A stretch of DNA of 64,000 nucleotides, from positions 52,383 through 116,382 of IMG/VR virus record IMGVR_UViG_3300020447_000001; one strand, 5' to 3'. This document shows, piece after piece, positions 17,379 to 21,447 of this stretch. Within the stretch, counting starts at the first letter, position 1; every line of letters starts with the position of its first letter. The notes below the pieces were generated by a model, which was given only the letters and a program-made list of their open reading frames with translations, was not told where the DNA came from and did no database searches. A program made the position numbers and the translations under genes. This DNA is from a virus.

Positions 17379-17741
17379 ATGGTACAGCGATTTGGGCCTA
17401 GTAAACGCAGGACACGGAAACCACCGGAAAACGAATGGCTCCAGTTTATGTCGACGAGTGAAAAAGAGACTCTAAGGCAAAAAGAATGGTTAGATACATC
17501 TCTAGCGGATACTGGTTTACCGGTTCGTGTGGTAAATTGCCTGGAGGAGGCCGGAATTCTTACTGTGGAGGACTTGACGAAACAAACCGCAGATGCGTTA
17601 CTACGTATTACCAATTTTGGCGAGCAAACATTGGGACAATGTACTCGCCTGCTGGCAAAACTTAATCTTCCGCATTGCTTGCAGGAAGAGGCACATGAAG
17701 ACCCCGGTAGGTGTATTAACCTTAAGTCTCCTTCCAGGTGA
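17379..17741 (+). CDS. RNA polymerase alpha-subunit C-terminal-domain-like protein
   Basis: A 120-residue protein. Residues 44-95 align with the bacterial alpha-CTD: PVRVVNCLEEAGILTVEDL, then ADALLRITNFGEQTLGQCTRLLAKLNL. By alignment to E. coli alpha, Arg265, Asn268, Cys269 and Gly296 are kept (here R50, N53, C54, G81), while Lys298 and Ser299 become Gln and Thr. In E. coli these residues contact UP-element DNA and activators. There is no alpha N-terminal domain, so it cannot assemble as a normal alpha subunit. It could bind UP-type DNA or compete for alpha-CTD partners. The N-terminal 35 residues are basic and probably disordered. A strong hairpin overlaps its end. Confidence 0.75.
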   Translation: MVQRFGPSKRRTRKPPENEWLQFMSTSEKETLRQKEWLDTSLADTGLPVRVVNCLEEAGILTVEDLTKQTADALLRITNFGEQTLGQCTRLLAKLNLPHCLQEEAHEDPGRCINLKSPSR

Positions 17742-17829: not shown

Positions 17830-18654
17830 ATGGCTACAATTACTAAAGCAAAAATAGCAAAGAACGGAAAAGTATCGACAGCAAAGAAGGCAACTTCACA
17901 GAGAAAGGATCCTTTTGAAAAGACGCGTATTGTAATACCGGCAATGAAGAAGGCGATCTACAGGGCTACCCTATATGGAAAAACGGATCTGATCGTACAT
18001 GCTTTAGGCACGAAGGCAAAAAAGAAGTTGTTGGACTCAATGGGGCCGAAGAACGCTGCGTCGAAAGTGCGACCTGCTAAAGATCCCGCCGCTGAGTATT
18101 TTGACAGCATGTACATCCTTAACAACAAGTACGACTTTGTGACTGGAGAATACTCCAATCCTCACATGAAAGATCAGCCGTACACGGGCGACATCGACGC
18201 AGATTATGAGACTATTATGCGTCCCATCCGGTACGAAGATTGCACGGCTATTCACGGGGTAGCTTGCGCGGGTATCCGAAAGGGCATGGTTCGTGCGGCA
18301 AAGTCGTGCGGGGCCGTTATGACAGATACCAACTGTAATATACGGGTAGAAAGTCCTTATGGGAACGAGCTTGCCATTAAATTTGAAACTCTTGTTTCTG
18401 GGGAAGTCCCGGTTAAAGTCGGTAAAAACCAAACGGACTTGCGATATCGTCCTCACTATTCAAACTGGAGCATAGATATTGCGATTACTCACCAGTCTGA
18501 GATTATCGGGCCGGAAGAATTGACACAACTCCTTCGAAATGCCGGGGAATTTGTCGGCCTGTCAGAATGGAGAAACGAGAAGGGCGGTCAATACGGCGCG
18601 TACGAAGTAGACCTCAACAGTATTCAATACGAGCTAACTAAAGACAACAAGTAG
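17830..18654 (+). CDS. Unknown protein with GLSxW...YGAYEVD C-terminal motif
   Basis: A 274-residue protein. The first 30 residues are Lys/Thr-rich and probably disordered. The remainder is mixed, ending with NAGEFVGLSEWRNEKGG and QYGAYEVDL. The 177-residue protein at 34202 ends with a very similar arrangement (KAGQYKGLSPWKPGEFGFYDVV), so the two share a domain. A terminator follows the stop. Function unknown; genes with this ending occur in other large phages. Confidence 0.6.
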   Translation: MATITKAKIAKNGKVSTAKKATSQRKDPFEKTRIVIPAMKKAIYRATLYGKTDLIVHALGTKAKKKLLDSMGPKNAASKVRPAKDPAAEYFDSMYILNNKYDFVTGEYSNPHMKDQPYTGDIDADYETIMRPIRYEDCTAIHGVACAGIRKGMVRAAKSCGAVMTDTNCNIRVESPYGNELAIKFETLVSGEVPVKVGKNQTDLRYRPHYSNWSIDIAITHQSEIIGPEELTQLLRNAGEFVGLSEWRNEKGGQYGAYEVDLNSIQYELTKDNK

Positions 18655-18674
18655 ATAATTCTGTTTTCGTTATA

Positions 18675-18705
18675 AGCCCCTAGCCTCCGGGCTAGGGGCT
18701 TTTTT
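18675..18705 (+). terminator. Intrinsic terminator
   Basis: AGCCCCTAGCC pairs with GGCTAGGGGCT (11 bp, loop TCCG), followed by TTTTT. It separates the upstream unit from the gene that precedes the pentamer array. Confidence 0.9.
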
Positions 18706-18718
18706 AAAAGGAGAACTC

Positions 18719-19243
18719 ATGGAAGCTGCAATTAATTTTGAGTATCAAGCGAAGAAGGGTCGTCCGTTATCAGATGCGGTAGCCGAATTGGTGGGTCCTG
18801 AAATTCGATCGCTTAGCCAAGAGACAGGGGAGGAAGTCACCCCTGTCGAGTATTTAAACTGGGTAGCTACTCATCCACATAGTGAAAGTCACGCTTTGTT
18901 TGAGTGGGACGACACAGAAGCAGCGAAGAAATATCGTCTGCACCAAGCACGAAACATTATCAACTCGATTGAGATTAAGATAATTGATCATCGTGGAGAT
19001 GAAACTTTTGTCCCTGCTTGGCTAAACATAAAGGTACAAAACGACGAAGAGGAATCTCCTCGTCAAGTCTACACTTCGTTTGAAAGTGTCGTAAATGATA
19101 ATGAAAAAAGTCAAATAGTGGTGGCACAAGCGAGAAAAGAGTTTATTTCCTGGCGACGACGTTATTTGTTGTTTAGGAATGAGTTACCTCTAGCCGCTAT
19201 TTTTGAGGCTACTGATGAGCTTGAGCTAGAAGAAGAAGGTTGA
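18719..19243 (+). CDS. Unknown 174-residue protein upstream of the pentamer array
   Basis: Starts behind AAAAGGAG. It is acidic with a charged Glu-rich C-terminus (ELELEEEG). No family recognised. It is the only gene between the terminator at 18705 and the one at 20104, so a transcript starting near it would continue through the G-rich array as a very long 3' untranslated region. Whether the protein binds that RNA is unknown. Confidence 0.55.
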   Translation: MEAAINFEYQAKKGRPLSDAVAELVGPEIRSLSQETGEEVTPVEYLNWVATHPHSESHALFEWDDTEAAKKYRLHQARNIINSIEIKIIDHRGDETFVPAWLNIKVQNDEEESPRQVYTSFESVVNDNEKSQIVVAQARKEFISWRRRYLLFRNELPLAAIFEATDELELEEEG

Positions 19244-19253
19244 CACCTTAAAA

Positions 19254-20051
19254 CAAGGCGAGGTACGGCTAGGCTAGGTACGTCATGTTCAGGTGGGGCG
19301 AGGCAGTCGTGGCTGGTTCGGGCGAGGCAGAGGCGTGGACTGGATGGGCAGTCGGGGCGAGGTCGGGCAAGGCAGCGTGGGGTCTGGTAGGGCAGGGCAG
19401 TCATGTCACGGACGGGCGAGGCAAGTCCGGGGCGGGCAAGGCCTGGCAGTCAAGTCAGGGTTTGGTCTGGAACGGCTAGGCTAGGCTGGGTCGGGCGTGG
19501 TTTGGCAGTCAGGGCGAGGCGAGGTCCGGTTTGGTGCGGAATGGTGGGATATGTAATGGCTGGTCGTGGCTGGTTCTGGCAGTCGGGGCTTGGTGGGGTA
19601 CGGTAAGGTTTGGTTGGGTATGGTCTGACTTGGCAGTCTCGGCGAGGTCGGGCTAGGCTAGGCTAGGCTGGGTCGGGCATGGTGAGGCAGTCATGGCAAG
19701 TTCAGACTTGGCTAGGTAGGGCGGGCTCGGGCACGGCAGTCACGGCTAGTTCGGGAGTGACAAGGCGGGTTCAGGTCAGGTACGGCAAGGCAGTCAAGGC
19801 GGGGAAAGGCTGGGCTAGGCTGGGTGGGGTCTGGACAGGCAGTCACGGTGAGGTCTGTTGCGGTGAGTCGGGTACTGGTAAGGACGGGTTCGGCAGGCAT
19901 GGTCGGGCAGCGTAGCTCATGGCGAGGCCAGGCGAGGCCAGGCACGGCAGTCAAGGCGATGTGGGGTGTGGCTTGGCTAGGTAGGGCTTGGACAGTCGAG
20001 GCAGTCTAGTCATGACAAGGCTAGGTGTGGCGGGGTGCAGGTAAGGCAGTC
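19254..20051 (+). ncRNA. G-rich NNGGY pentamer array, 15 blocks joined by AGTC
   Basis: About 800 non-coding bases made of degenerate pentamers NNGGY. Counted by hand, 147 pentamers: 120 have GG at positions 3-4, 143 have G at position 3, and 134 have a pyrimidine at position 5, while positions 1-2 vary freely. Blocks of 8-14 pentamers end in GGC and are separated by AGTC (one AGGC). The GGCAGTC starts are at 19302, 19347, 19396, 19445, 19504, 19578, 19632, 19686, 19735, 19789, 19838, (19892), 19946, 20000 and 20045. Spacing is mostly 49 or 54, averaging about 53. The strand is strongly G-biased, and all six frames are low complexity, so it is not coding. A terminator follows directly, so it is probably transcribed on this strand, perhaps as the 3' end of the preceding gene's mRNA. 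Confidence 0.7.
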
Positions 20052-20064
20052 ACGTCCAGCTATG

Positions 20065-20104
20065 AACACCGCAAGTGCTACCATGCGCTTGCGGTGTTTT
20101 TTTT
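20065..20104 (+). terminator. Intrinsic terminator ending the pentamer array
   Basis: AACACCGCAAG pairs with CTTGCGGTGTT (11 bp) around a 12-base loop, with a run of eight T. It is one of the strongest terminators in the window and lies only 14 bases beyond the last AGTC, so the array is inferred to be transcribed left to right. Confidence 0.9.
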
Positions 20105-20221
20105 CTCTGGTACAAACCCTGGTACTTTTTTAGGGGGGACAAAAAGGGAGTCATATATTAGCCGATTAGACCGCAACTGCGCCGCAGCTAATTACCGGGG
20201 TTTGTACTAGCGCCGCAGCTA

Positions 20222-20400
20222 GGACGCAGCTGAGGACGCACTTGGGACGCACTTGTAATGCACTTGGAACGCACACTCCAGTGCACATTTTCTGCATATT
20301 TTCTGCACATTTTCTGCATACTGGAGTGCACATTTTCTGCACAATGGGCTGAGGACGCACTTGGGACGCACACTGGAGTGCACATTTTCTGCACAATGGG
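20222..20400. repeat. Helically phased GCA array, 11-12 bp period
   Basis: GCA (mostly GCAC, some GCAT or GCAG) occurs at 20226, 20238, 20249, 20260, 20271, 20283, 20294, 20305, 20316, 20328, 20339, 20357, 20368, 20380 and 20391, i.e. every 11 or 12 bp with one 18-bp gap. Units are GGACGCACTTG and TGCACATTTTC. Larger direct repeats lie inside: a 24-bp copy at 20229-20252 and 20348-20371, and a 29-bp copy at 20320-20348 and 20372-20400. The repetition on one helix face is like iterons of a replication origin or a cooperative operator. No gene is present. Confidence 0.8.
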
Positions 20401-20417
20401 GGGTAAAAAACTAAAGT

Positions 20418-20463
20418 TTTACCTCCTACAATAACTTAACGCGTCCCTTATACTACGTATAAG
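20418..20463 (+). repeat. Left 46-bp inverted repeat flanking the glycosyltransferase
   Basis: This segment is the exact reverse complement of 21371-21416, by base-by-base comparison. It contains TATACT at 20449 and the palindrome CTTATACTACGTATAAG. The glycosyltransferase ribosome site (GAAAGG) follows immediately. Confidence 0.85.
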
Positions 20464-20473
20464 AAAGGCGAGC

Positions 20474-21232
20474 ATGATTAAACGAATTCCACTGGGGCTG
20501 CAAGACATACTGACCCGAATCGAAGATCCGTCGGACGCATTCACATTTAGTCGTTGGGGTGATGGCGAATGGCAAGCGATTGCAGGGGCGAGAAGCCGTA
20601 GTAATCGAGACGGGCACAGGTATTTCCCAGAAATGGGCAAAGAACTACGCCAAATCTTGCTGGAACAGCCAGATTACGTTATGGGCATGCAGGGATTAGC
20701 CCTGCGGGTCATGGGAGACAAAATTAACACGCAAGTTAAAGCCGCAGGCCTAGATTACGTCGATTGGGTAGATTCGGATGTATTTCACCAAGCTGCTTTA
20801 AACGGACATCTCTATTGCGTTGTAAACGCAGTAAATACACGAAAGGTGTTGCTGGTTGGTCCACCCCATCTAAGGAAGGTCAATACAAATACAAATTTAC
20901 CCCTACATTATTGGGAATTTGTAGAGGTCTCGCCAAAGAATGCTTATCTGGATATAGAGCGCGTAATAGGGGATATAGAGCAAATTTTAGCAGAATACAA
21001 AGGAAAAGAGCCTTTGTGTATCTCAGTAAGTGCCAGCTTACCTGCGGGTATTATTCTTCACAGAATATACCCATTAACCAAGGGGCGACACACTGTAATA
21101 GACTTCGGATGTTTGTGGGATCCGTTAGCTGGTGTAATTACAGCGGGATATCACAAGGAGCAAGGTATTAAAGCTATTGTGGAAGCTAGAAGTACAGAAC
21201 CTTACATCACGGAAGTAAGTGAAGAACAGTAA
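20474..21232 (+). CDS. GT-D-fold glycosyltransferase-like protein
   Basis: A 252-residue protein. FTFSRWGDGEW near residues 25-35 matches the RxGDGE motif of GT-D (DUF1792-type) glycosyltransferases, where the acidic residues bind the metal-nucleotide sugar. A later VSASLPAG and VIDFGCLWDP agree with the fold's strands. No membrane segment is seen. It would add a sugar to a glycan, protein or other acceptor; the acceptor is unknown. The gene is bracketed by 46-bp inverted repeats (20418-20463 and 21371-21416) with a weak terminator inside the right one, so it may be a movable or invertible cassette. Base composition is similar to its neighbours. Confidence 0.7.
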   Translation: MIKRIPLGLQDILTRIEDPSDAFTFSRWGDGEWQAIAGARSRSNRDGHRYFPEMGKELRQILLEQPDYVMGMQGLALRVMGDKINTQVKAAGLDYVDWVDSDVFHQAALNGHLYCVVNAVNTRKVLLVGPPHLRKVNTNTNLPLHYWEFVEVSPKNAYLDIERVIGDIEQILAEYKGKEPLCISVSASLPAGIILHRIYPLTKGRHTVIDFGCLWDPLAGVITAGYHKEQGIKAIVEARSTEPYITEVSEEQ

Positions 21233-21345
21233 CACCTATTTACTATAGTAACATAGCATATGTTACTGTGCAATAAGAAGGTAATTTACTACGTAAATCC
21301 ATATGGAATTGGCGAAGATTAACAGATAAGTAATTTACTTAAGAT
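21233..21345. other. Gene-free region with small palindromes
   Basis: Contains AGTAACAT...ATGTTACT (8-bp arms) at about 21246, and GTAATTTAC at about 21282 and 21330. They could be operator half-sites or RNA hairpins; function unknown. Confidence 0.35.
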
Positions 21346-21370
21346 ACAGGGAGAAAAAAGACTCCCTGTT
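21346..21370 (+). terminator. Weak intrinsic terminator
   Basis: ACAGGGAG pairs with CTCCCTGT (8 bp, A-rich loop) followed by TCTT. It lies just before the right inverted repeat. Confidence 0.5.
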
Positions 21371-21416
21371 CTTATACGTAGTATAAGGGACGCGTTAAGT
21401 TATTGTAGGAGGTAAA
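21371..21416 (-). repeat. Right 46-bp inverted repeat
   Basis: The exact reverse complement of 20418-20463. Together they bracket 907 bp holding only the glycosyltransferase. It lies 31 bases upstream of the next start codon. Confidence 0.85.
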
Positions 21417-21447
21417 GTTTTAAGTTACAACCACGAAGGAGTTAGTA

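Follow-up and report, generated by a model that had tools for sequence, protein, structure and literature searches.

A GCA repeat array beside a VIPR locus of an uncultivated phage as a candidate multi-site operator

In the DNA of a large uncultivated phage, the intergenic space from an intrinsic terminator (20064-20099) to the start codon of a gene at 20474 is occupied by an array of short units that share a YGCA(C) core, follow one another in an 11-bp register and are independent of the VIPR locus next door. We tentatively consider this GCA array to be a multi-site operator controlling gene 20474. Judged from its sequence, the array looks like a series of protein-binding sites; the protein would bind them cooperatively, and the outcome would be transcriptional control instead of replication. 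When all functional readings are taken together, a cooperative multi-site binding array of some kind is likely. An earlier note on this DNA had joined the GCA units and the neighboring G-rich array into one speculative replication origin, which is now replaced by a VIPR locus with decodable guide blocks and a clean candidate for a multi-site operator. All positions refer to the window, that is, the whole stretch of 64,000 nucleotides analyzed, which corresponds to 52383-116382 of a virus record of 116,382 bases. No terminal repeat was found in this record, which is probably incomplete.

Results

The trinucleotide GCA occurs 15 times within 20222-20400, as the earlier note had counted, at 20226, 20238, 20249, 20260, 20271, 20283, 20294, 20305, 20316, 20328, 20339, 20357, 20368, 20380 and 20391. 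The spacing of 11-12 bp that was claimed for these sites holds for 13 of the 14 gaps and fails for one, which measures 18 bp. The exact direct repeats of 24 bp and 29 bp were recovered with both copies of each (Table 1), and together with a 37-bp repeat they represent higher-order copies within the array. Two extra GCA units of the same form as the array units lie at 20184 and 20215. Nowhere else in the window does a single 3-mer recur at 11/12-bp spacing over so long a run as here, with 12 GCA from 20215 to 20339; the best run away from the array is 4 among those listed, and the maximum for any 3-mer in 20 Markov simulations of the window was 5. The array is real, and its regularity is far above chance.

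Table 1. Coordinates of the features from the VIPR locus to the segment downstream of the GCA array.
Feature	Position	Strand	Remarks
Vipr, RAMP-fold protein with a glycine-rich loop near the C-terminus	17830-18654	+	Alignment, predicted structure, Foldseek
Conserved partner gene, phrog_15946 family	18719-19243	+	FEWDDTEA motif
VIPR vrRNA (guide) array	19252-20056	+	GGY/NN pentamers; blocks mostly of 9-11 units; dividers GGCAGTCNN
Intrinsic terminator closing the guide array	20064-20099	+	15-pair stem followed by a T run; fold -26.9 kcal/mol
Imperfect inverted repeat, terminator-to-array stretch	20107-20210	.	Arms 20107-20127 and 20190-20210
Outlying GCA units at 20173, 20184 and 20215	20173-20222	+	GCGCCGCAGCTA twice, at 20179-20190 and 20210-20221
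Main GCA array, core YGCA(C)	20222-20401	+	Unit types GGACGCACTTG (A) and TGCACATTTTC (B) in a single 11/12-bp register
24-bp exact direct repeat	20229-20252	+	Second copy 20348-20371
29-bp exact direct repeat	20320-20348	+	Second copy 20372-20400; read straight from the sequence
Segment between 61-bp inverted repeats	20412-21422	.	Arms 20412-20472 and 21362-21422, 92%; starts about 11 bases past the array
Gene directly 3′ of the array, 252 aa	20474-21232	+	No family match

The GCA sites are most sharply phased at a period of 10.9-11.0 bp (R = 0.78). With 10.5 bp per turn the phase is weak (R = 0.32): the first eleven sites then turn through about 275 degrees, and the 18-bp gap sets the rotation back. 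Because of the period of 10.9-11.0 bp, the sites wind around the DNA helix and share no single face, and the proposal that they all lie on the same side of the helix is not borne out. When the 17 units are aligned on GCA, YGCA is present in 17 of 17 (the preceding base is C in 8 and T in 9). Because GCA was the criterion by which the units were picked, its constancy is conditioned, in contrast to that of the preceding pyrimidine and of the register. The base after GCA is C in 12 of the 17 units, and the pairwise identity at the positions outside GCA is 41%.

VIPR is a recently described phage-versus-phage weapon. We read 17830-20099 as a VIPR system of a large uncultivated phage, consisting of a RAMP protein, a partner gene, a guide array and a terminator. 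The product of ORF 17830-18654 was modeled with a pLDDT of 79, and a Foldseek search of the PDB matched it to CRISPR effectors, namely chains of the Csm, Cmr and type VII complexes (best E 8.9e-6). Every one of the 50 listed PDB matches belongs to a CRISPR effector complex, with modest TM-scores of 0.25-0.59, and the alignment contains conserved glycines near the C-terminus. The model thus predicts a Cas7-type RAMP fold. The second gene, ORF 18719-19243, probably encodes the VIPR accessory protein (vap); it is conserved together with the locus, its predicted fold has no significant PDB match, and a tblastn search of INPHARED with its family, phrog_15946, produced no match. Relatives of this ORF occur in 86 viral stretches; 80 of these were retained, and many of the loci are near-copies of one another. 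According to a fixed test (at least 25 period-5 GG pairs per 300 bases), 67 of the 80 loci contain a GG array of period 5, compared with 0 of 94 unrelated viral loci. A looser segment test detected the array in 75 of the 80, on the coding strand of the ORF 18719 relative, and relatives of ORF 17830 are present in 73.

According to the available part of a 2026 preprint (PMC13142463), VIPR systems combine a RAMP protein with vrRNAs of alternating GGY/NN motifs, and the vrRNAs recognize DNA with a one-base skip. The locus described here resembles the systems in that source in its RAMP protein, partner gene, GGY/NN pentamer array (the third base is a pyrimidine in 109 of 120 GG-headed units) and phage setting, and differs from them, as far as the source is available, in that its guide blocks are separated by GGCAGTCNN. 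Given these matching features, the G-rich pentamer array appears to be best read as a VIPR guide-RNA array. Since a guide array accounts for the G-rich stretch, an R-loop-primed origin is not needed, and the joint origin once proposed for the two arrays finds no support. Neither the record nor 3.9 Mb of loci contained a sequence that stood out as a guide target, and in the same sequences the guides with nine NN yielded no clear excess for the one-base skip over other skip rules. Just before the VIPR genes, a small ORF at 17379-17741 has an RNA polymerase alpha C-terminal-like domain (PF03118), and it is also found in a close relative, L299. In the VIPR-bearing relative G002 (L381:2265-3713), the guide array is interrupted by approximately 520 pentamer-free bases and then resumes.

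Both VIPR genes have homologues in G002, which also has a guide array, all at the same place; in the 20 kb examined there, no run at 11/12-bp spacing reaches six units. Because this relative has the VIPR locus without a GCA array at that place, sequence comparison puts the GCA array outside VIPR, and the two arrays are separate. Among the VIPR loci, a GCA-type run of seven was found only in L139-L141, where it lies about 4.5 kb away and has a different unit. The six stretches L381-L386 from relatives contain no such run, and a search of eight relatives for the array DNA returned only one 14-base chance match; among the relatives examined, therefore, the function of the array is without support from conservation. 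We also considered the array as a target of VIPR and rejected this idea because no guide matches the array better than chance.

The closer relative L299 (88-91% DNA identity) is collinear with the record up to 17758 and then diverges. Because this collinearity ends right before the VIPR genes, the alignment identifies the region from 17758 onward as accessory. The synteny break directly follows a terminator-like hairpin.

Gene 20474-21232 starts about 75 bases past the GCA array and sits within the segment bounded by inverted repeats. Its product contains the motif FSRWGDGE, which we take to recall GT-D glycosyltransferases. One relative of the gene, L176, is not listed with a GCA-type run. 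On the plus strand past the array, the -10-like hexamers TACAAT (20427) and TATACT (20449) are present, and a sigma-70 scan of this stretch recognized no full promoter and no -35 element. In G002 (L381:3719-4090), another small gene with 36-bp inverted repeats of different sequence is situated right after the guide array, and an inverted repeat of similar size was observed in only four of the other 80 VIPR loci, in none of them beside the guide array.

Direct searches identified no counterpart of the array. Rfam returned no hit, INPHARED returned no match with the region or with P0002, and a collection of phages returned none with L210, L259 or L472. The 15-mer TGCACATTTTCTGCA occurs in 94 stretches of the viral contigs, none with an array among those listed.

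Discussion

According to the operator reading that we tentatively favor, a phage-encoded DNA-binding protein, most likely of the helix-turn-helix type, would bind the YGCA(C) cores head to tail with one subunit per 11 bp, and the resulting filament, winding slowly around the DNA, would switch transcription into gene 20474-21232. This reading draws on the constancy of YGCA in every unit while the other positions have diverged, and on the presence of two unrelated unit types in one register. The closest known counterparts are the operators of Alt/Ltr-type late activators in the Lactococcus phages TP901-1 and BK5-T and in the Staphylococcus phage phi13, which likewise consist of tandem imperfect direct repeats, there in a promoter-upstream position. 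The available text of PMC13123087 places the binding sites of TP901-1 Alt at -76 to -32, in four imperfect direct repeats, and states that the corresponding promoter of phi13 is abolished when the repeat region is deleted. In Lactococcus phage BK5-T (L224:11446-11483), four TGCAC units, exactly 11 bp apart, precede a GATAAT box and lie just 3′ of an Alt-like activator gene. The likeness to this phage includes both the core (TGCAC) and the spacing (11 bp), and the BK5-T unit TGCACGTTTTT is identical to type B at 9 of 11 positions. Moreover, the Alt-like family is matched by 2 of the 58 ORFs that flank intergenic arrays of this kind, among the matches listed.

The resemblance to an Alt-type operator is nevertheless partial. 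The tandem imperfect 11-bp repeats are present here, whereas the promoter is represented only by -10-like hexamers, and 15 or more units contrast with the four described in the accessible part of PMC13123087. No activator gene adjoins the repeats, which have the VIPR locus on one side and gene 20474 on the other, and the gene concerned is not a late structural one. An Alt-like protein (phrog_2198) has no match in the probably incomplete 116-kb record. Lack of conservation also counts against the operator, as does the more frequent location of arrays with the YGCAC core and 11-bp spacing inside replication-initiator genes. The missing full promoter is compatible with an operator, since an activator-dependent promoter would allow its absence.

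The main competing explanation, which we consider unlikely, is that the units are iterons of a replication origin, where a phage initiator would bind the YGCAC units and load a helicase at the array. When viral contigs were scanned for four YGCAC spaced by 11 bp, at least 119 loci were identified, and the exclusion of 39 without a spanning ORF and of 2 duplicates left 78 distinct ORFs of 100 aa or more. Among the matches listed for these 78, the leading families are DnaD-like helicase loaders and replication initiation proteins (PHROG member counts of 10, 9, 8, 8 and so on among the ORFs listed), and a single-linkage homology cluster unites 20 of the 78 ORFs listed, with both replication groups inside it. 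The control, which kept the same core at a spacing of 14 bp, began with 72 loci and, after removal of 34 without a spanning ORF and of 4 duplicates, retained 34 ORFs. A replication-family match was found in 0 of these 34, many of which are probably spurious because only two family matches of any kind occurred among them. With the core fixed and the spacing varied, these comparisons suggest that YGCAC at 11-bp spacing within a phage gene (L180-L298) marks initiators and presumably origins, and such an in-gene rule could help to place origins in unannotated phage genomes. Eight GACGCAC units, which are near type A, occur within a 355-aa ORF of helix-turn-helix look in L237 and L472.

The GCA array shares with these initiator-gene iterons the YGCAC core, the 11-bp spacing and the imperfect units. 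However, it is intergenic, lies approximately 14 kb from the helicase genes and is accompanied by neither a strand-opening region nor a recognized initiator. The AT content does not exceed 0.63 in 60-bp steps over 20040-20549 (window mean 0.55), and no DnaA box is nearby. No initiator gene was recognized in or beside the array, and the three large initiator families phrog_2514, 9474 and 270 have no match in the probably incomplete record, the search with 9474 having been silent in control genomes too. The binding protein suggested in the earlier note, ORF 15147, has no family match. The GC-skew check proposed there revealed no sign change at the array or anywhere in the 116-kb record, the skew being positive in every 4-kb step. 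The array is also missing at the syntenic place of G002. The flanking genes of intergenic arrays do not separate the 11-bp set from the 14-bp control, since primase and terminase genes flank both, and this comparison was not counted as support for any reading. Of the description of the sites as iteron-like, the appearance of a protein-site array stands, with YGCA in every unit and kindred arrays in other phages; the origin features that were looked for in the sequence were not found. The operator is favored over the origin because the array is intergenic, is part of an accessory region, and lacks strand-opening DNA, a skew switch and a recognized initiator.

The remaining explanations are less probable than an origin. 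The units may have arisen by slippage as a neutral tandem duplication with no function, which we regard as improbable; the 24-bp, 29-bp and 37-bp copies do point to recent duplication, and the array is absent from the relatives examined, but slippage alone would decay evenly, and the constancy of YGCA over two unit types whose other positions diverge argues against this origin of the pattern. A packaging or partition site, on which a small terminase (pac) or an adaptor of the ParR/TubR type would assemble on phased repeats, has a slim probability. The pac of phage SPP1 contains direct repeats, as far as PMC4737164 was available, and the accessible part of PMC9426499 states that ParR of plasmid R1 needs 11-bp repeats, so that the tandem 11-bp direct repeats are a point of likeness with R1 parC. 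In addition, a small-terminase family is matched by 3 of the 58 ORFs flanking intergenic arrays, among the matches listed; terminase genes, however, flank the 14-bp control arrays as well, and the terminase gene of this phage is 7 kb from the array. The record is that of a virus rather than a plasmid, it has no ParA match, and it has no match to ParM in a search that was silent in the controls too. Least probable, in our opinion, is a decoy origin, in which the array would mimic iterons belonging to a competing phage or a satellite and titrate the competitor's initiator. The core and spacing of the array are those of initiator-gene arrays in other phages, yet no initiator is recognized in the record; the array adjoins the anti-element VIPR module, and the accessory region that holds both begins where synteny breaks off; and ectopic lambda origins are reported, in the part of PMC4488673 available, to arrest lambda. 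If the decoy were real, RNA-guided repression by VIPR and titration of an initiator would hit the same competitor. A competitor with the exact units was not found, however, and the pattern of a type A pair retrieved 23 stretches with mostly two or three units.

Coding and RNA readings of the array were also considered. A protein repeat was rejected because GCA is spread over all three frames (7, 4 and 4). The minus strand across the array has one chance frame that is open for 76 codons; it was rejected as a gene, with a TTG start and the nearest AGGAGG approximately 26 bases before it. RNA structure was rejected as the main feature, since folding of the plus strand barely beats that of shuffled sequences (z -1.2). 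The minus-strand RNA of 20205-20400 folds better than shuffled sequences (z -3.1), an excess that is expected from inverted repeats rich in GTGCAC.
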